From Vibrio gazogenes (GTDB lineage: Bacteria > Pseudomonadota > Gammaproteobacteria > Enterobacterales > Vibrionaceae), in assembly GCF_002196515.1 (NCBI RefSeq), contig NZ_CP018835.1, forward strand, positions 3,286,001 to 3,350,000: 64,000 nucleotides of DNA, given 5' to 3'. Position 1 is the stretch's first letter; each line of letters starts with the position of its first letter. Below are positions 12,698 to 52,826 of this stretch, piece by piece. A program made the translations under genes and the position numbers. The notes beneath the pieces were generated by a model. That model made no database searches. It was given only the letters and a program-made list of their open reading frames with translations, and was not told where the DNA came from.

Positions 12698-14632
12698 TTA
12701 TGACGATTTACGAACACGTAAATACCATTCGGATAACAATCTGACTTGTTTCTCGGTATAGCCTTTTTCCATCATCCGCGCGACGAAATCATCATGTTTT
12801 CTCTGTTCTTCAGAGGATGTTTTCGTATTGAAAGAAATAACCGGTAAGAGCTCCTCTGTATTGGAGAACATTTTTTTCTCAATCACAGTGCGCAGTTTTT
12901 CATAACTGGTCCATACAGGATTTTTACCACTGTTATTCGCTCTGGCACGTAACACAAAGTTAACGATTTCATTCCGGAAATCTTTTGGATTACTGATACC
13001 AGCGGTTTTTTCGATTTTTTCCAGCTCACTATTGAGCGCGGAGCGATCAAACAGTTGGCCGGTTTCCGGATCGCGATATTCTTGATCCTGAATCCAAAAG
13101 TCCGCATAAGTGACGTAACGGTCAAAGATGTTTTGCCCATATTCAGAATAAGACTCCAGATAAGCGGTCTGGATCTCTTTGCCGATGAACTCAACATATC
13201 TGGGCACCAGATAACCTTTGAGATATTCGAGATATCGTTCGGCAGTATCCTGAGGGAACTGTTCCCGCTCTATCTGCTGTTCGATGACATAAAACAGATG
13301 CACTGGGTTGGCCGCAACTTCTGTCTGATCAAAGTTGAATACACGGGAGAGTATTTTGAAGGCAAAACGTGTTGATAGACCGTTCATCCCTTCATCCACA
13401 CCGGCATAGTCTCGATACTCCTGATAGCTCTTCGCCTTCGGATCGGTATCTTTGAGTGTCTCACCATCGTAGACTCGCATTTTGGAGAAAATGGACGAGT
13501 TTTCCGGGACTTTGAGACGAGACAGAACACTAAATTGTGCCAGTGTTTCTAAGGTGCTGGGTGAGCAAGGCGCAAGAGACAGTTCACTGTGATCCAATAG
13601 TTTTTGATAGATTTTGACTTCTTCCGAGACGCGTAAGCAGTAAGGCACTTTGACGATATATACCCGATCCAGAAATGCCTCGTTATTTTTATTGTTCCGG
13701 AATGCCTGCCATTCTGACTCATTCGAGTGAGCGAGGATCATGCCTTCAAATGGTAAGGCGGATAAACCTTCCGTTCCGTTATAGTTCCCTTCCTGAGTTG
13801 CAGTCAGCAGGGGATGCAGCACTTTAATCGGTGCTTTAAACATCTCGACAAATTCCATCAAACCCTGATTGGAGCGACAAAGCGCGCCAGAGTAACTATA
13901 CGCATCGGGGTCATCCTGAGAGAAATGTTCCAATTTACGAATATCAACCTTACCGACGAGTGAAGAAATGTCTTGGTTGTTTTCATCTCCCGGTTCTGTT
14001 TTTGCGATAGCAACTTGATCCAGTATGGATGGGCGTAATTTGACGACTTTGAATTTTGTGATATCCCCGCCAAATTCATGGAGTCGTTTGGCTGCCCATG
14101 GTGACATGATGCTCCGGAGGTAGCGTTGATCAATGCCGTATTCGGTTTTGAGCAGCTCTCCGTCTTCACTGATGTCGAACAGGCTGAATGGATGGTCATT
14201 CACCGGACTACGTTGCCCATTTGCACTGAGTACGTAGATAGGCATCTGCTGCATTAATGATTTTAGTTTTTCTGCAAGTGATGATTTACCACCCCCGACA
14301 GGGCCAAGTAAATAGAGAATTTGTTTCCGTTCTTCAAGTCCTTGAGCAGCATGTTTTAGGTAAGAGACAATTTGCTCAATGGATTCTTCCATCCCATAAA
14401 AGTCTTTAAAAGTATCATAACGAGAGATCACCCGATTCGAGAAAATACGGCTCAAACGGGGATCTTTTGATGTATCGATGACTTTAGGCTCACCAATGGC
14501 TAATAGTAGACGCTCGGCAGCATTAGCATAGGCACTTTTATCTTCTTTACATAACTGTAAGAAGTCTTGTAGTGATAACTCTTCTTCCTTCGCTGCTTCA
14601 TAACGCGCTTGAAAATGGTCGAATATACTCAT
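12698..14632 (-). CDS. prkA: PrkA-type AAA+ serine protein kinase YeaG
   Basis: A 644-residue protein, the same length as E. coli YeaG. The N-terminal AAA+ domain has Walker A GPVGGGKSS near residue 111, in a region running from SRIFSNRVISRY through the first 380 residues. The C-terminal PrkA domain (about 390-640) is related to kinases. Family members phosphorylate serine in stress adaptation, and a protease activity has been proposed for the Bacillus protein. It is the first gene of the cluster with yeaH and ycgB. Confidence 0.93.
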   Translation of the reverse strand: MSIFDHFQARYEAAKEEELSLQDFLQLCKEDKSAYANAAERLLLAIGEPKVIDTSKDPRLSRIFSNRVISRYDTFKDFYGMEESIEQIVSYLKHAAQGLEERKQILYLLGPVGGGKSSLAEKLKSLMQQMPIYVLSANGQRSPVNDHPFSLFDISEDGELLKTEYGIDQRYLRSIMSPWAAKRLHEFGGDITKFKVVKLRPSILDQVAIAKTEPGDENNQDISSLVGKVDIRKLEHFSQDDPDAYSYSGALCRSNQGLMEFVEMFKAPIKVLHPLLTATQEGNYNGTEGLSALPFEGMILAHSNESEWQAFRNNKNNEAFLDRVYIVKVPYCLRVSEEVKIYQKLLDHSELSLAPCSPSTLETLAQFSVLSRLKVPENSSIFSKMRVYDGETLKDTDPKAKSYQEYRDYAGVDEGMNGLSTRFAFKILSRVFNFDQTEVAANPVHLFYVIEQQIEREQFPQDTAERYLEYLKGYLVPRYVEFIGKEIQTAYLESYSEYGQNIFDRYVTYADFWIQDQEYRDPETGQLFDRSALNSELEKIEKTAGISNPKDFRNEIVNFVLRARANNSGKNPVWTSYEKLRTVIEKKMFSNTEELLPVISFNTKTSSEEQRKHDDFVARMMEKGYTEKQVRLLSEWYLRVRKSS

Positions 14633-45987: not shown

Positions 45988-46080
45988 TTCATGCACGGTT
46001 ACTGATTGTTCAGATAATCGGCCAATCAGCTAATTAATAACCATTTGATTGTCAAAGGGCGGTTTTTACGATTTTTCTCC

Positions 46081-46109
46081 TTGACCTTCTTCCGAAGAAT
46101 CATTAAATT
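46081..46109 (+). promoter_or_regulatory. Promoter of the tRNA-Ser gene
   Basis: TTGACC (46081-46086), a 17-base spacer, and TAAATT (46104-46109) are followed by the GC-rich discriminator GCGCCCCG (46111-46118), typical of stringently controlled stable-RNA promoters. The tRNA starts 34 bases after the -10. Confidence 0.7.
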
Positions 46110-46142
46110 AGCGCCCCGTTGAAACAATAATTTCAACGATTC

Positions 46143-46230
46143 GGTGAGTTGTCCGAGTGGCTGAAGGAGCACGCCTGGAAAGTGTGTATACGGCAACGTA
46201 TCGAGAGTTCGAATCTCTCACTCACCGCCA
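46143..46230 (+). tRNA. tRNA-Ser (anticodon GGA)
   Basis: An 88-base class II tRNA with encoded CCA. The acceptor arms are GGTGAGT and ACTCACC, the anticodon loop CTGGAAA gives GGA, a long variable arm follows (GTATACGGCAACGTATCGA region), and the T-arm has GAGAGTTCGAATCTCTC. It nearly matches E. coli serW/serX. It is a single gene followed directly by a terminator and then by accessory DNA, so it may be the island's anchor. Confidence 0.97.
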
Positions 46231-46235
46231 CATTC

Positions 46236-46266
46236 AAGGCCGTAGACATTCGTCTGCGGCCTTTTT
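46236..46266 (+). terminator. Terminator of tRNA-Ser
   Basis: AAGGCCGTAGAC and GTCTGCGGCCTT arms (one G-T pair) around a 4-base loop, followed by TTT. It starts 5 bases after CCA. Confidence 0.92.
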
Positions 46267-46304
46267 CGTTTCTGAAATTCGTTGCTGAAATCTATACCGG
46301 AAAA

Positions 46305-46403
46305 TCAATGTTGCAGCATGAGAATACATTGATGTGAAGTGCCTCGGGAAAAGCAGCGATACGGATTCAAACTGGTGAAAAACCATAGACTTTTGCGCAG
46401 CAG
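46305..46403 (+). repeat. 99-bp direct repeat, copy 1
   Basis: This 99-bp sequence is repeated at 47940-48038 in the same orientation with one mismatch, 1,635 bp apart. It starts 38 bases after the tRNA terminator. It contains a short inverted repeat TCAATG/CATTGA near its start and has no long reading frame. The two copies flank the RNase T2 gene, so they look like the edges of a gene cassette or a recombined insertion. I do not recognise the element. Confidence 0.9.
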
Positions 46404-46800
46404 TCTCCTGTTGGTTGTTGATCTGCCGAGATCAATCAACAGGAGATACACCGCGATCCCTTCAACACATACACCAGAAATCACTACATCTCTTTTTTGT
46501 GTCCGTATACCTTTCTATAACACTTGTATCTAAACCGGATAAAAGAGATGGCATCAGGTCTGAATTATCCGCTCTGGCTGGGAGCTTTAAGGGGCAGTCC
46601 TTCCAATGATTTTTATCCCATGAACTGGAAGACTAAACCGGGATTGACCCGGTTATTGCGGCATGTCCGGTGAAAAAAACAGTGTCATGATTATTTCGCA
46701 AAAATAATATGACACTAAGTTTTATTTAACTTCTTTCTTATTTAATTTGATATGTTTAGTATTGCGACGCTTACACATACTTATACAGGAAATTTGTTAA
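46404..46800. other. Non-coding region before the RNase T2 gene
   Basis: Directly after repeat copy 1 is an imperfect hairpin: CTCCTGTTG (46406-46414) pairs with CAACAGGAG (46437-46445), and TTGATCT with AGATCAA inside. A second hairpin AACCGGG/CCCGGTT is at 46636-46654. The rest is AT-rich leader DNA of the RNase T2 gene. I see no reading frame I would support. Confidence 0.5.
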
Positions 46801-47796
46801 ATGAAACTAAAAACTCTGTTGGCTGTTTTTTCTGCCCTGGCACTGTTGTTCGGTGTTGTCGGGCAGAGTTCCGCGGTGACTTTCTCTGGTACTTTTTATG
46901 CCAGCCAGTCATGTCCGGCTTATCAATCAAAAAACAAGAAAACCAATCCTGGTAACATCTATCTGGTTTCCGGGCAGTCTTACCAAATTCGTGAGGCGAA
47001 TAAAAATGACGCCACCTGGTACCGGGTGGTGGTTGAAAATGCTAATCCGCAGTTGCGTTGGGTCTCTGTCAGTTGTGGTGAGGTAAAAGGTGATGATTCT
47101 TCTTCATCTGGCAGCTCGGGTTCTGGCAGATGTTCAACGGCGGGTCAGGAAGACAGTTATGTCTTTGCTCTCAGCTGGCAGCCAGCTTTCTGTGAAACAC
47201 ACACGTCAAAGCCTGAATGTAAAGTCACGGATTCCAGCGCTTATCAGGCCGGAAACTTTACCCTGCATGGTTTATGGCCGAATAAAGCTTCTTGTGGCAC
47301 AAGTTACGGATTCTGTGGCAGTTATTCTCACTCGGTGAGTCCTTTTTGCAGCTATGATGCGGTTCCGATGCCATCATCGACGCTGGCATTACTGGGACAA
47401 TATATGCCAAGTGCAGCCTATGGTTCTTGTTTACAACGTCATGAATGGTACAAGCATGGTACCTGCCAGACGCAAAGAAACGCGGATGAATATTTTAAAA
47501 CTGCGATTCGTCTGCAAAAAGAGTTTAACCAGAATGTCGCTTATTTCATGCAGGAGCATCTCGGTGAATCTGTCTCCACGCAGGACTTTTTTGATGTTGT
47601 GGATCAGGCCTTTTTCGATGGAGCGTATAAACGGTTACAGATTTCATGTAAGAACAGAAAATTAGTGGATGTCTATATTAATTTGCCGAAACAACTGGAT
47701 GAAAATGCTTCCCTTGCAAGCTTAATGATGGATGCTGATCCGAAGTTTTCTAACCAATGTGGCAGCAGCTTCACTGTGGATGAAATCGGCTTTTAA
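46801..47796 (+). CDS. Secreted RNase T2 family ribonuclease
   Basis: A 331-residue exported ribonuclease. A signal peptide (about residues 1-25, ending SSA/VTFSGTF) precedes an extra N-terminal domain of some 70 residues with cysteines and a Ser/Gly linker (residues 98-110). The catalytic T2 domain follows. CAS1 is FTLHGLWPN and CAS2 is RHEWYKHGTC, with both histidines and the glutamate present; many cysteines suggest disulfides. E. coli RNase I lacks this N-terminal domain and linker. It sits alone between the two 99-bp repeats, which suggests transfer as a unit. Possible roles are nutrient scavenging or competition. Confidence 0.92.
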   Translation: MKLKTLLAVFSALALLFGVVGQSSAVTFSGTFYASQSCPAYQSKNKKTNPGNIYLVSGQSYQIREANKNDATWYRVVVENANPQLRWVSVSCGEVKGDDSSSSGSSGSGRCSTAGQEDSYVFALSWQPAFCETHTSKPECKVTDSSAYQAGNFTLHGLWPNKASCGTSYGFCGSYSHSVSPFCSYDAVPMPSSTLALLGQYMPSAAYGSCLQRHEWYKHGTCQTQRNADEYFKTAIRLQKEFNQNVAYFMQEHLGESVSTQDFFDVVDQAFFDGAYKRLQISCKNRKLVDVYINLPKQLDENASLASLMMDADPKFSNQCGSSFTVDEIGF

Positions 47797-47862
47797 TCAT
47801 CCGTTCTGACGGATAAAAAAGAAGGCGGTTTTCCCGCCTCCTTCTTGTGATTACATTGGTAT

Positions 47863-47886
47863 AAAACCCGGTTCAATCCGGGTTTT
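47863..47886 (+). terminator. Terminator of the RNase T2 gene
   Basis: AAAACCCGG and CCGGGTTTT arms around TTCAAT, then ATTT. An earlier hairpin with GGCGG/CCGCC (47824-47838) lies 27 bases after the stop and may act with it. Confidence 0.75.
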
Positions 47887-47939
47887 ATTTCTGAAAGTTA
47901 TCTAAATCAATCAAATTGAAAGATAAAATCCCGCTGAAC

Positions 47940-48038
47940 TCAATGTTGCAGCATGAGAATACATTGATGTGAAGTGCCTCGGGAAAAGCTGCGATACGGA
48001 TTCAAACTGGTGAAAAACCATAGACTTTTGCGCAGCAG
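47940..48038 (+). repeat. 99-bp direct repeat, copy 2
   Basis: Second copy of the 99-bp element, identical to 46305-46403 except for one base (A to T near its middle). It ends 49 bases before the MNT-HEPN start. The frame upstream of that gene runs through the repeat from 47974, but this is a chance extension. Confidence 0.9.
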
Positions 48039-48087
48039 CTCGCCACACTGTGGGCATTGTTCACTAACCGATTCAAATCATTCAGGT

Positions 48088-48969
48088 ATGAAGACTTCAC
48101 TCGACCATCTTCCCGAACGTAAACAGCATGAACTTGCGCTGATCTCGGCCATTTTGCGCGATACGCTGGAAGAATACCTCGTTGGTAAGCAGGGGAGTAA
48201 AGCTGAATTTCGGATCCTGAAAATCATTCTGTTTGGCAGCCATGCCAAAGGCGGTTGGGTGAGCGATATTCCCAACGGCTATGTCAGTGACTACGACATT
48301 CTAGTGATCGTCAACAAACCCTCGCTGGTGGAAGAGGATCTCGTCTGGCGCAGGGCCGAAGAGCAGATCGACCGTAAAGTCAAAAGCGCGCCGCTGGGGC
48401 TGATCGTTCATACGCTCAAAGAGGTCAATGAACAACTACAAAAAGGTCATTACTTTTTTACCGATATTCGTGAACAAGGTATCTTGCTTTATAACGCCAA
48501 TGGGAAGGAGCTCGCTGAACCGGGGAACTTAACCGAAGAAGAGCATCGAGAGATTGCGCAGGGGCATTTTGATCATTGGTTTACGAGTTCTCAGCAGTTT
48601 TTGCGTTCTTTTGAATTTTCATTTCACGAGCAAAAGTGGTTGAATCATTCTGCATTCCTACTCCATCAAGCCACGGAACGTTTTTTCGCCTGTACGTTAC
48701 TGGTGCAGACCAACTACCTACCCAAAACCCATAATATCGAGAAACTGAAAAAATATTGCGCCGAGCAAGATCTTGCTTTCGCTGATATCTTCCCGATGGA
48801 CGACAAATTCCACCGTCGCAGCTTCCGCCGCCTGCAACGTGCCTACATCGACGCCCGTTACTCGATGCATTACGAAATCACCGAAGAAGAACTGGTGTAT
48901 CTGCAAGGGGAAGTGGAGAAGCTGAAAGGGCTGGTGGAGCAAGTTTGTCTGACGCGACTTGAGGTTTAG
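48088..48969 (+). CDS. MNT-HEPN fusion protein (nucleotidyltransferase + HEPN)
   Basis: A 293-residue single-chain protein. The N-terminal half is a minimal nucleotidyltransferase with G50-S51 in ILFGSHAKGGW and D68-x-D70 in SDYDILV. The C-terminal half (about residues 150-290) is a HEPN domain with the conserved LLHQATERFFACTLL and ARYSMHYEITEEE. In two-gene systems the MNT protein silences a HEPN toxin by adding nucleotides. Here both halves are fused, and the HEPN active-site motif R-x4-6-H is not clearly present, so ribonuclease activity is uncertain. The shorter start at ATG 48088 (MKTSLDHLPERKQHELA) is the family N-terminus. The LRR-Roco-TIR gene follows after 194 bases. Confidence 0.88.
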   Translation: MKTSLDHLPERKQHELALISAILRDTLEEYLVGKQGSKAEFRILKIILFGSHAKGGWVSDIPNGYVSDYDILVIVNKPSLVEEDLVWRRAEEQIDRKVKSAPLGLIVHTLKEVNEQLQKGHYFFTDIREQGILLYNANGKELAEPGNLTEEEHREIAQGHFDHWFTSSQQFLRSFEFSFHEQKWLNHSAFLLHQATERFFACTLLVQTNYLPKTHNIEKLKKYCAEQDLAFADIFPMDDKFHRRSFRRLQRAYIDARYSMHYEITEEELVYLQGEVEKLKGLVEQVCLTRLEV

Positions 48970-49163: not shown

Positions 49164-52100
49164 ATGATGAGTCCATTCGAACACCCTGGTGCCTTACGTG
49201 AATCCAATCGCCTCATTGAGCAAGCTTTAGCCACCGGCCAGAATCATCTCGATTTAAGCCAATTAAATCTCAGGCAACTCCCCCCACAGCTTGAAAAGCT
49301 CTCGCAGCAGTTAACCTCGTTGAATGTGAGTGGGTGTAGAAATCTGAGCAGTCTATTCGGAATCGAAGGTTTGTCTCAGCTGACTTCGTTGGATGTGAGT
49401 AGGTGTGACAACCTGAGCAGTCTATCCGGAATCGAAGGTTTGTCTCAGCTGACCTCGTTAAATGTGGGTGGGTGTAGCAACCTGAGCAGTCTGTCCGAAA
49501 TCGAAGACTTGTCGCAATTGACCTCATTGAATGTGGGTGGGTGTAGCAACCTGAGCAGTCTGTCCGAAATCGAAGGCTTGTCGCAATTGACTTCGTTGAA
49601 TGTGAGAGAGTGTGGCAACCTGAGTAGTCTGTCCGGCATCGAAGGCTTGTCGCAATTGACTTCGTTGAATATGAGTTGGTGTAAGAATCTGAGCAGTCTG
49701 TCCGGCATAGCAGGTTTGTCTCGGTTGACCTCGTTGAATGTGAGTTGGTGTGACAACCTGAGCAGTCTGTCCGGCATAGCAGGCTTGTCGCAATTGACTT
49801 CGTTGAATATGAGTTGGTGTAGAAATCTGAGCAGTCTGTCCGGCATAGCAGGTTTGTCTCAGCTGACCTCGTTGAATGTGGGTGGGTGTGAGAATCTGAG
49901 CAGTCTGTCCGGAATCGAAGGTTTGTCTCAGCTGACTTCGTTGGATGTGAGTGGGTGTTACAACCTGAGCAGTCTGTCCGGCATCGAAGGTTTGTCTCAG
50001 CTGACCTCGTTGGCAGTGAGTTGGTGTGACAACCTGAGCAGTCTGTCCGGAATCGAAGGTTTGTCTCAGCTGACCTTGTTGAATGTGAAGAATCTGTCCA
50101 GCATAGAAGGGCTGTCTCAGCTGACTTCGTTGGATGTGAGTGGGTGTGACAACCTGAGCAGTCTGTCCGGCATCAAAGGTTTGTCGCAATTGACCTCGTT
50201 GAATGTGAGGTGGTGTAGCAACCTGAGCAGTCTGTCCGGCATCGCAGGTTTGTCTCAGCTGACCTGGTTGAATGTGTTTGGGTGTGACAGCCTGAGCAGT
50301 CTGTCCGGAATCGAAGGCTTGTCGCAATTGACTTCGTTGAATGTGGGTGAGTGTGACAACCTGAGCAGTCTGTCCGGCATCGAAGGTTTGTCGCAATTGA
50401 CCTCGTTGAATGTGTTTGGGTGTAGCAACCTGAGCAGTCTGCCCGGCATCGAAGGTTTGTCGCAATTGACCTGGTTGAATGTGTTTGGGTGTGAGAATCT
50501 GAGCAGTCTGTCCGGCATCGAAGGTTTGTCTCAGCTGACTTCGTTGAGTGTGGGTGGGTGTAGCAACCTGAGCAGTCTGTCCGGAATCGAAGGTTTGTCG
50601 CAATTGACCTCGTTGAATGTGAGAGGGTGTAGCAACCTGAGCAGTCTGTCATGGGAAGTCGGAGAGCACATCATTACTCAATTCCCAAGATTATCTATTT
50701 TGGGTCGTTTACCGATAGAGCATGTGCCTGTTGAACTGACTGAGGACTTTAATCAACGCGCAGTTGAGGATTGGTATCATGACTTGCAAACCAGTGGGTA
50801 TGAATCCCCTGAGGCTTTAAAAGTGATGTTGTTGGGCAATGGTCGGATTGGAAAAACCCAGTTGGCCCGTCGTTTGCGCGGTGACAGTTTTGATGTTTCT
50901 GTTCCCAGTACCCACGGCATTCAAATCAACCAGTTCACCCATAAGAGTGGCGCACAGATTCATACCTGGGATTTCGGCGGTCAGGATGTTTATCTGAGTA
51001 CGCATACGATGTTTATTGATAAGCAAGCGATTTACCTACTGTTATGGCATCCTGAGGCGGAAAATACAGACCTGATCTGTTGTGATCAGTTAACTATTCG
51101 CAACAAACCTTTGAGTTACTGGTTGGCCTATCTGAATTCTCTGGTCGGGGAACAGGCCAATGTGATGGTGTGTCAGTCCCAGTGTGATTCGCCGGCTCAG
51201 GAGTTGCCTGAACCGATTCCACATCCGACACCGCTGAAGCGATTAAAACGAGTGGCTTGTAGCGCAAAAGCCGAAGATGGGCTTGAGCTGTTCCACGCCC
51301 AGTTTGACAGGGCGGTGAAATATCAGTTGGCGGTCAACGGTGAGATATGGCTTCCTAAAACCTGGTTGAAGGTCCGTCAGTTGCTCCAAAATCACTATGA
51401 TGATGGTGAAAAACGGATGTGTTTCGAACAATTTGAGGCACTATGCCAAGCCTCTCATGTATCGGCACCGTATACACTGGCAAAATACCTGCATCAGTCG
51501 GGCTGTGTGTTCTTCCGTCAAGGGCATTTTAATAACGATCTGATTCTGGATCAGGCGTGGGCATTACAAGGCGTTTACCTACTGTTGGAGCGAGATATTG
51601 CGTTGCCACAATTAAGAGAAAATCAGGGGAAATTCTCTCAGGAGACTTTGCGCCGCCTGTTATGGGACAACCCGGAGAATGCAGGAGATGAAGCACTATT
51701 TATCAAGATGATGCAGCAATGTGGCGTCTGCTTTGAAATTGAAGTGAATCAATACATTGCTCCGGATGCCTTGCCAGATAAAGCCAGTATTAGCGCACAG
51801 CTAATTCAGATATGGCAGTCGGCGGTTCCGGATATTGAAATCCGGCTTGATTACCCGTTTTTACATGAGGCGACCCAAAGAGTCATCCTGAGTCGGATGG
51901 GTTCCATCGCAAAAGCAGCCGCCTGTTATTGGCGCTATGGGTGTTGCTATTTTGACAGCAAACATCAGGTGAAAGTGATGCTGGAGTGCTTTGAGATTGC
52001 CGAATCTGAGTTAACTCAAGAACATATTGATAGCTTTAGTCGTCCGGGGCATATCCGGATCCATATTGCAGGGGCAAAGGGAGGCGAACTGGCTGAACAC

Positions 52101-52826
52101 TTGGTGGATTCAATCAAGGAGACTCATGCGCTGGGGGCAAAGCCACAAGTACAATGGTTGAAAGGTGCACCGAAGCAGGAGGAATCTATGGAGAGTCGCA
52201 GTTCAAAAGAGCCGTTTTCAGAGATGGGGGAAGCGGTTCAACCACCTGTACCTAAAGTCTTTTTTTCATATGCTTGGGGGGCTGAGAGCGATGAGCGCCA
52301 GCAGCGATGTGATGAAATCTATCAACACATAGAGCAACAGGCTTGGCTGGATGTGTATCGGGATAAAGAATCGATGAGCATCGGGGATAGTATCGATAAG
52401 TTTGAACGACAGATCGGCCGTGGTGATTTTATCGTTTTGCTGATTAGTGAAAAATCACTTCATTCGGCGCACTGCATGAAAGAGATGGGGCATATTTACC
52501 AACGTTGTCAAAGGCAGAAAGAGGAGTTCGTCGGCAGGGTTATTCCTGTCGTGCTATCGGATGCAAAAATCGATTCACTCAAAGACAGATTAAGCATCGC
52601 TTCATACTGGAAAAAAGAGTGCACTGAGCTGAATGCACAAGTTGAGGAACTTGGGGCAGCGATAGCTGGTGCTGAGTCGATCAAGGAGTTGGAAATCATG
52701 CGTTCATTCCTCGACAGTTGTGTTAATACACTGAAATGGGTCAGTGACTTAGTGACAGAAAGACACCCGGACTTACAAGTGGATGCTACGGTTGAGCTGA
52801 TATTGAAGCGGATTCGGGAGGCGTGA
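49164..52826 (+). CDS. LRR-Roc-COR-TIR protein (bacterial Roco with TIR effector)
   Basis: A 1220-residue multidomain protein without signal peptide or membrane segments. Residues 1-49 look like a helical cap with one degenerate LRR. Residues 50-497 are twenty leucine-rich repeats, nineteen of 23 residues and one of 17. Then comes a Ras-of-complex GTPase with P-loop GNGRIGKT at 558-565, DFGGQD at 603-608, a changed G4 (QSQCD) and CSAKAEDG for G5. A COR-like region follows (about 730-1000, with YLHQSGCVFFRQ). The TIR domain begins near 1031 (KVFFSYAWG), with the C-M-K-E motif at 1104-1107, E1107 being the likely catalytic Glu for NAD cleavage. LRR, GTPase switch and TIR effector suggest a sense-and-suicide immune receptor. 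Downstream is a 271-base gap. Confidence 0.9.
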   Translation: MMSPFEHPGALRESNRLIEQALATGQNHLDLSQLNLRQLPPQLEKLSQQLTSLNVSGCRNLSSLFGIEGLSQLTSLDVSRCDNLSSLSGIEGLSQLTSLNVGGCSNLSSLSEIEDLSQLTSLNVGGCSNLSSLSEIEGLSQLTSLNVRECGNLSSLSGIEGLSQLTSLNMSWCKNLSSLSGIAGLSRLTSLNVSWCDNLSSLSGIAGLSQLTSLNMSWCRNLSSLSGIAGLSQLTSLNVGGCENLSSLSGIEGLSQLTSLDVSGCYNLSSLSGIEGLSQLTSLAVSWCDNLSSLSGIEGLSQLTLLNVKNLSSIEGLSQLTSLDVSGCDNLSSLSGIKGLSQLTSLNVRWCSNLSSLSGIAGLSQLTWLNVFGCDSLSSLSGIEGLSQLTSLNVGECDNLSSLSGIEGLSQLTSLNVFGCSNLSSLPGIEGLSQLTWLNVFGCENLSSLSGIEGLSQLTSLSVGGCSNLSSLSGIEGLSQLTSLNVRGCSNLSSLSWEVGEHIITQFPRLSILGRLPIEHVPVELTEDFNQRAVEDWYHDLQTSGYESPEALKVMLLGNGRIGKTQLARRLRGDSFDVSVPSTHGIQINQFTHKSGAQIHTWDFGGQDVYLSTHTMFIDKQAIYLLLWHPEAENTDLICCDQLTIRNKPLSYWLAYLNSLVGEQANVMVCQSQCDSPAQELPEPIPHPTPLKRLKRVACSAKAEDGLELFHAQFDRAVKYQLAVNGEIWLPKTWLKVRQLLQNHYDDGEKRMCFEQFEALCQASHVSAPYTLAKYLHQSGCVFFRQGHFNNDLILDQAWALQGVYLLLERDIALPQLRENQGKFSQETLRRLLWDNPENAGDEALFIKMMQQCGVCFEIEVNQYIAPDALPDKASISAQLIQIWQSAVPDIEIRLDYPFLHEATQRVILSRMGSIAKAAACYWRYGCCYFDSKHQVKVMLECFEIAESELTQEHIDSFSRPGHIRIHIAGAKGGELAEHLVDSIKETHALGAKPQVQWLKGAPKQEESMESRSSKEPFSEMGEAVQPPVPKVFFSYAWGAESDERQQRCDEIYQHIEQQAWLDVYRDKESMSIGDSIDKFERQIGRGDFIVLLISEKSLHSAHCMKEMGHIYQRCQRQKEEFVGRVIPVVLSDAKIDSLKDRLSIASYWKKECTELNAQVEELGAAIAGAESIKELEIMRSFLDSCVNTLKWVSDLVTERHPDLQVDATVELILKRIREA
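49311..50654 (+). repeat. In-frame tandem repeat array, 69-bp LRR units
   Basis: Twenty DNA units lie head to tail from 49311; the last starts at 50604. Nineteen have 69 bp and unit 12 (50070-50120) has 51 bp, an in-frame loss of 18 bp. Most bases are identical between units. Differences cluster at unit codons 7, 8 and 10, around an invariant cysteine at 9 (missing in unit 12): codon 7 is Ser, Gly, Arg or Phe; codon 8 is Gly, Arg, Glu or Trp; codon 10 is Arg, Asp, Ser, Gly, Lys, Glu or Tyr. These should be exposed on the solenoid. The array also lacks stops on the other strand, which creates large false antisense frames. Confidence 0.95.

Follow-up and report, generated by a model that had tools for sequence, protein, structure and literature searches.

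The direct repeat that flanks an RNase T2 gene in Vibrio gazogenes is the conserved upstream region, or leader, of a multicopy gene encoding a nucleotidyltransferase-HEPN protein (NT-HEPN), and it is no insertion sequence of its own. Taken as a whole, the observations are probably best explained by a leader that forms the 5' part of a repeated NT-HEPN module recombining by shared homology. The window analysed comprises 64,000 nucleotides of the V. gazogenes genome (G000), and its relevant features are collected in Table 1. A sequence-only reading had described two copies of a 99-bp sequence, identical at 98 of 99 positions, in the same orientation, in non-coding DNA and 1,635 bp apart, which match no family known to that reading and define a discrete RNase T2 unit that recombination between them would delete cleanly. 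The identity (99% over these 99 bp) and the orientation were reproduced, and the repeat extends to 102 bp with 98% identity between the left (L) and the right (R) copy; the 1,635 bp hold as start-to-start spacing and not as the gap, which measures 1,533 bp. Such a pair of 102-bp repeats cannot have arisen by chance. L is situated between tRNA-Ser(GGA), just downstream of the tRNA terminator, and the RNase T2 gene, while R lies between the RNase T2 gene and the NT-HEPN gene, ending 49 bp before the ATG at 48088, so that the repeat covers about -151 to -50 relative to this start codon. A mechanical list of open reading frames carries the NT-HEPN frame into R through a GTG at 47974; a coding leader was rejected, because a one-base indel separates the aligned copies inside the leader, which is thus read as untranslated. 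With both copies intergenic, their non-coding nature stands as far as the analysis tells. Overlooked were the tRNA-Ser, the NT-HEPN gene following R and three further copies on another contig.

Table 1. Features of the window around the two leader copies (positions in the window).
Feature	Position	Strand	Remark
tRNA-Ser(GGA)	46143..46230	+	left edge of variable island; ARAGORN
Terminator-like hairpin	46236..46263	+	after tRNA
L copy	46302..46403	+	orphan leader without its NT-HEPN gene
Relic of PhzF-like region	46404..46493	+	region upstream of RNase T2 in G001; 90% over 90 bp to L103:714-801
Relic of GNAT gene 3' end	46531..46615	+	same G001 neighbourhood; 94% over 85 bp to L103:1943-2027
RNase T2 gene	46801..47796	+	331 aa; PF00445
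R copy	47937..48038	+	upstream leader of intact NT-HEPN gene
NT-HEPN gene	48088..48969	+	293 aa; N-terminal nucleotidyltransferase, C-terminal HEPN
Hypervariable NT-HEPN segment	48565..48687	+	about residues 160-200
LRR-Roc-COR-TIR protein gene	49164..52826	+	1220 aa; cargo of same island

A search of the 99-bp sequence in the genome and in other vibrios, as the sequence-only reading had proposed, identified it as the leader of the NT-HEPN gene. The genome itself contains five copies, namely L, R and three diverged ones (84-87%) on the 1.3-Mb contig C2, presumably chromosome 2, and the repeat matches in six of 227 vibrio genomes (up to three candidates scored per genome). A 21-bp core was then used to search eight chosen genomes, counting copies with at most one mismatch in the fetched stretches and leaving out those with more. 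This yielded 26 leader copies in six genomes: 13 stand at a fixed distance before an intact NT-HEPN open reading frame (292-293 aa), a further two precede a truncated frame, and the remaining 11 are orphans. The view that the element belongs to no known family is thereby superseded; the repeat comes close to being part of a conserved gene, the finding named beforehand as speaking against that view, since it forms the upstream region of a multicopy gene that is conserved, and precedes whole or truncated NT-HEPN in 15 of the 26 copies. Homology between the window and its relatives spans leader and gene, from 47937/9 to about 48964, which makes the repeat the front part of a repeated module, with L as an orphan. 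A tail of about 540 bp 3' of the stop codon accompanies five of the 13 intact copies, with fragments at two others, and is absent after the window's NT-HEPN gene; its copies at L006:7045-7592 and 13216-13750 are about 90% identical, with no long open reading frame of their own seen and no Rfam match. Within a site, the leader copies of a genome share one direction, and most belong to arrays located either downstream of tRNA-Ser(GGA) in the large contig or on C2; at both sites the leaders are separated by other genes, of which several are defence-like. These two sites do not cover all copies, because one G201 copy, its fourth leader, is found about 18 kb outside the first site, beyond the start of a conserved LysR block, and the copies of G133 (V. 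ruber) are scattered over separate contigs. Terminator-like hairpins occur within 135 bp upstream of 18 of the 26 leaders (all 11 orphans and seven of the 15 others) versus 47 of 520 random stretches from the same loci, an association which is a lead only, because the leader copies are not independent. Collections of plasmid and phage DNA contained no repeat match at E 1e-5, and the 21-bp core has no exact match among viral contigs.

The gene that follows R encodes a protein with conserved ends and a strikingly variable middle. Nucleotidyltransferases are characterized by the motif GS...DxD and HEPN RNases by Rx4-6H. The HEPN domain of the window's protein matches PF05168 above the cut-off, and its N-terminal nucleotidyltransferase matches fall below the Pfam cut-offs. 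Across the 13 intact proteins, mean identity per 20-residue block amounts to 94-97% for residues 1-120 and 90-100% for residues 201-280, versus 81-87% for residues 121-160, 46% for 161-180, 69% for 181-200 and 70% for the C-terminal end. Differences at the three codon positions are 0.056/0.011/0.187 for residues 1-120 and 0.292/0.199/0.442 for residues 159-200. Comparing the genes at the same position in G000 and G060, nucleotide identity is 97% in the leader, 92% over codons 1-120, 58% over codons 159-200 and 96% over codons 201-280, and the variable segment of G060 is 92-93% identical (nucleotides) to those of G130_C2 and G133_75; a conserved leader and conserved ends around a middle of 58% argue for a segment swap between NT-HEPN paralogues. 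The variable stretch recurs in an alignment of 32 proteins, the non-vibrio sources being Terasakiispira (three), Marinomonas transparens (six, five of them aligned), an uncultured Marinomonas (four) and Saccharospirillum (two); the alignment omits L080, which does not match in a single clean frame, and L065-L067, which duplicate the V. ruber copies included under G133. Conserved ends, a variable segment and several copies per genome are thus also seen in Terasakiispira, Marinomonas and Saccharospirillum. Invariant in all 32 proteins are G50, S51, D68 and D70, i.e., the nucleotidyltransferase motif is present, as well as R257 and H261, which form a HEPN motif R-x3-H. In an AlphaFold model (pLDDT 86.3, pTM 0.72) the variable segment maps to the opening pair of long HEPN helices with the turn between them, and structure matches include 4nqf (HEPN, Z 23.6), aminoglycoside nucleotidyltransferases, MNT antitoxins and HalB. 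HEPN domains fused to MNT have been described as typically devoid of the RNase residues and most likely inactive, co-opted instead for substrate binding or regulation (PMC3710099). From this description together with the structure matches, we infer that NT-HEPN is a nucleotidyltransferase whose choice of substrate or partner varies.

The RNase T2 stretch between the two leaders has a history of its own. RNase T2 matches occur in 18 of the 227 genomes, eight of them at 88% protein identity or above, and each of the six leader genomes holds a single match. In G001 and G127, which lie outside this group, the gene resides at another place, flanked by a penicillin-amidase-like gene and by endonuclease V; farther upstream come a GNAT gene and, in G001, also PhzF-like and GGDEF genes (neighbours named by Pfam for G001 and by resemblance for G127). 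Window positions 46610-47860 align to the 3' end of the G001 amidase gene plus RNase T2, and together with the PhzF-like and GNAT relics (Table 1) this block follows the same order as in G001; the DNA between the copies is therefore a piece of the old neighbourhood with two internal deletions. Since the PhzF-like sequence of G133 continues 15 bases further to the left than that of the window, the boundary 46403/46404 is read as a deletion junction. A DNA search of the six leader genomes detected no other trace of the G001 amidase, and endonuclease V gave only two matches there (65%, both in G000). Directly after L a strong hairpin was noted (46404-46446, z -5.9). It was rejected as an insertion-sequence end, being single-copy in its own genome and mostly contained in the PhzF-like region of G001, and because it is mostly inherited, a template switch was dropped as well.

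The movement of this stretch was recent, which lends the sequence-only reading partial support. Synonymous divergence (dS) of RNase T2 from the window is 0.03 for G201 and G060, 0.04 for G153, 0.05 for G133 and 0.08 for G130, versus core-gene values of 0.15-0.91 for these five genomes (the core gene set differing among genomes), and it rises to 0.29 for G001 and 1.87 for G127. Likewise, identity among the six species is 96.6-99.6% for RNase T2 versus 85.5-96.4% for core genes, and a stretch so much less diverged than the core therefore indicates recent horizontal spread. For the pair G130 and G133, about equally close in RNase T2 (96.9%) and core genes (96.4%), descent fits. In G060 and G201 the tract of low divergence covers about 46000-48150, just past both copies, with the exception of leader variants and of a 13-base gap before L in G060. 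The tract of G130 and G133 ends near 47857-47957, by the RNase T2 terminator and before the leader, which therefore did not serve as the exchange point in these two genomes.

The supposed discrete unit did not survive this comparison, because the bracket is not clean: L is an orphan, relics form the left end, and only three of the six genomes have both copies around the RNase T2 stretch (start-to-start 1,634-1,635), two of the remaining three having R only and one, G153, a shortened L only. In G153, R is lacking and about 81 bases of L are kept, which join the sequence upstream of RNase T2 at a short shared stretch. Nor was a clean deletion found, as none of the four tRNA-adjacent copies heads an NT-HEPN gene in the tRNA-leader-NT-HEPN arrangement that excision would leave. 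What the two copies share is instructive: in the window and in G201 both read AAAA-GC[A/T]GCGATACGG and in G060 both read AAAAGGCCGAGACATGG, with the L-specific and R-specific flanks kept in all three. Inside the repeat, the comparison of the window with G060 gave four columns shared between L and R within a genome and none shared between orthologues, and that with G201 one orthologue-shared column (52) and none paralogue-shared. These lineage-specific bases common to L and R point to gene conversion as the simplest reading of the alignment. The four columns cluster within 11 bp and could reflect a single event, or L and R could both have been converted by a C2 copy.

The tRNA-Ser site is a variable island, which runs from the tRNA to the conserved LysR/acuI block (from 52978 in the window). 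Its length is 6.7 kb in V. gazogenes, close to 14.7 kb in G060 and close to 24 kb in G201. G130 has its RNase T2-leader-NT-HEPN unit some 15 kb away from the tRNA. The functions of the cargo are predicted from profile matches, which give Dsr1 for G201, a KAP NTPase (PDC-S20) for the C2 array and, for G130, a helicase, a type III methyltransferase and a HEC-01 pair. PADLOC matched the window's TIR protein weakly and NT-HEPN only weakly (PDC-S09, E 2e-4), and gave no match for RNase T2, for one G201 protein and for three of four C2 proteins. A 626-aa G201 island protein (L022:7036-8916) has neither a Pfam nor a PADLOC match. The LRR-Roc-COR-TIR gene contains a run of units of about 69 bp (window 49272-50500; 17 listed copies up to 50500, the others 67-87% identical to the reference copy), a candidate for changes in repeat number. 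The right flank of the C2 array has no long match in G153, G001, G127, G133 or G130, so these five genomes offer no comparable empty site.

Three other explanations were weighed. The original idea of a discrete mobile RNase T2 element with its own 99-bp ends would agree with the recent spread between six species and with the bracketing at nearly constant spacing in three of them, but the stretch is unbracketed in the other three, its left end is gene debris, and 15 of the 26 leaders accompany an NT-HEPN gene, whole or truncated, most leaders being without RNase T2 because the six genomes hold one match each; we consider it very improbable. An attachment site, i.e., the leader or the tRNA 3' end plus terminator and leader being used by a site-specific recombinase, with L and R as att copies around RNase T2, is an unlikely reading that nonetheless draws on the location of L at the 3' flank of the tRNA, on the C2 arrays of G060 and G201 being bordered on both sides by orphans of terminator and leader, and on degenerate tRNA-Ser 3' ends carried by some C2 copies. 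Against it, all seven Phage_integrase (PF00589) matches in the window's genome fall outside both leader sites, orphans stop at differing leader positions, and scanning the window for the tRNA-Ser 3' end (20 nt, up to three mismatches) returned one match only, hence none at the right edge. No inverted pair of at least 18 nt was detected at the ends of the repeat copies. An integron, considered for the cassette-like C2 neighbours, was discarded, the best IntI (TIGR02249) score being 73.7 bits against a cut-off of 265.

A leader kept by selection of its own, as a functional RNA or regulatory element, appears quite improbable, even though TGTGAAGTG.CTCGGGAAAAG is invariant in all 12 aligned leaders, which were chosen by BLAST hits and not by this block (the 26-copy count uses the block and so says nothing on its conservation). 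No Rfam family overlaps the leader, and consensus folding gave weak covariation, with one of 24 pairs changed on both sides. A promoter scan of the leader yielded no sigma-70-like site. The preferred explanation, the leader as the front of a recombining NT-HEPN module, also has a point counted against it, since transposase-like ORFs within the arrays may be what moves the cargo (L006:16397-17352 and L088:2135-2842, which we take to belong to transposase families).

Several known systems resemble parts of this picture. The HEPN-MNT (MntA-HepT) type VII toxin-antitoxin system, in which AMPylation neutralises the toxicity, has the same two domains (VIA-align: 8xeo, Z 10.4; 7ae8, Z 9.2), but consists of separate genes, MNT antitoxin followed by HEPN, whereas here a single fused polypeptide of 293 aa is encoded and the HEPN motif is R-x3-H rather than Rx4-6H. 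The modelled two-domain layout is the same as that of ANT(4), KNTase, AadA and AAD(9), with VIA Z of about 10-11.5 and rmsd of 4.0-5.3 (ANT-4: Z 11.5, rmsd 4.0, 225 aligned, residues 6-293; KNTase: Z 10.8, residues 7-292); such middling Z values are common, identity to these aminoglycoside nucleotidyltransferases is 7-16%, and NT-HEPN differs by its hypervariable segment. Relatives of NT-HEPN are encoded in 386 plasmid records, all below 60% identity. In 358 of these records the match spans 80% or more of the query, and Rhizobium, Sinorhizobium and Agrobacterium account for 281 of the 386; the RefSeq name "Nucleotidyltransferase and HEPN domain-containing protein" is carried by ten of the 20 plasmid records listed. 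One phage record encodes a relative (40%), and a two-pattern scan of viral contigs gave no confirmed one. Defence islands borne by tRNA genes are of a known kind, as exemplified by VPI-2 of V. cholerae at a tRNA-Ser. The present island is like them in its tRNA-Ser edge and in cargo such as Dsr1 (G201), the type III methyltransferase and HEC-01 (G130), and unlike them in having neither a Phage_integrase gene nor a second tRNA 3' end at the window's site. Among the matches listed from the open-access literature, titles and the beginnings of abstracts mention neither multicopy leader arrays nor a hypervariable NT-HEPN segment.

In the module explanation, the repeated unit consists of leader, NT-HEPN gene and, in some copies, the tail of about 540 bp; R heads an intact module and L is the remnant of another one directly after the tRNA terminator. 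The RNase T2 stretch, having arrived with pieces of its old neighbourhood, would have come between modules, and a deletion would have joined the left leader to it. Leaders and gene ends would then serve as shared homology, through which RecA-type recombination may homogenise L and R, swap the variable NT-HEPN segment between paralogues and perhaps help neighbouring genes to move between genomes, a dedicated recombinase being unnecessary. A role of the leader as shared homology in defence-island arrays is what the comparison of these loci suggests. More tentatively, and with less expectation of being right, we propose that the NT-HEPN modules make up a polymorphic family of immune or conflict genes. 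Their nearly invariant leaders and gene ends would act as homology arms, by which a recognition segment of about 40 residues in the substrate-binding HEPN domain is swapped and adjacent defence genes are exchanged as cargo, both between the two chromosomal sites and between species, with no dedicated recombinase taking part.

What was puzzling about the repeat is thus accounted for by a recombining gene family, of which it is the visible edge. If the segment swap is true, the family would provide a simple natural system for finding out what a polymorphic NT-HEPN protein recognises, and a model for the shuffling of defence-island cargo by homologous recombination instead of integrases.
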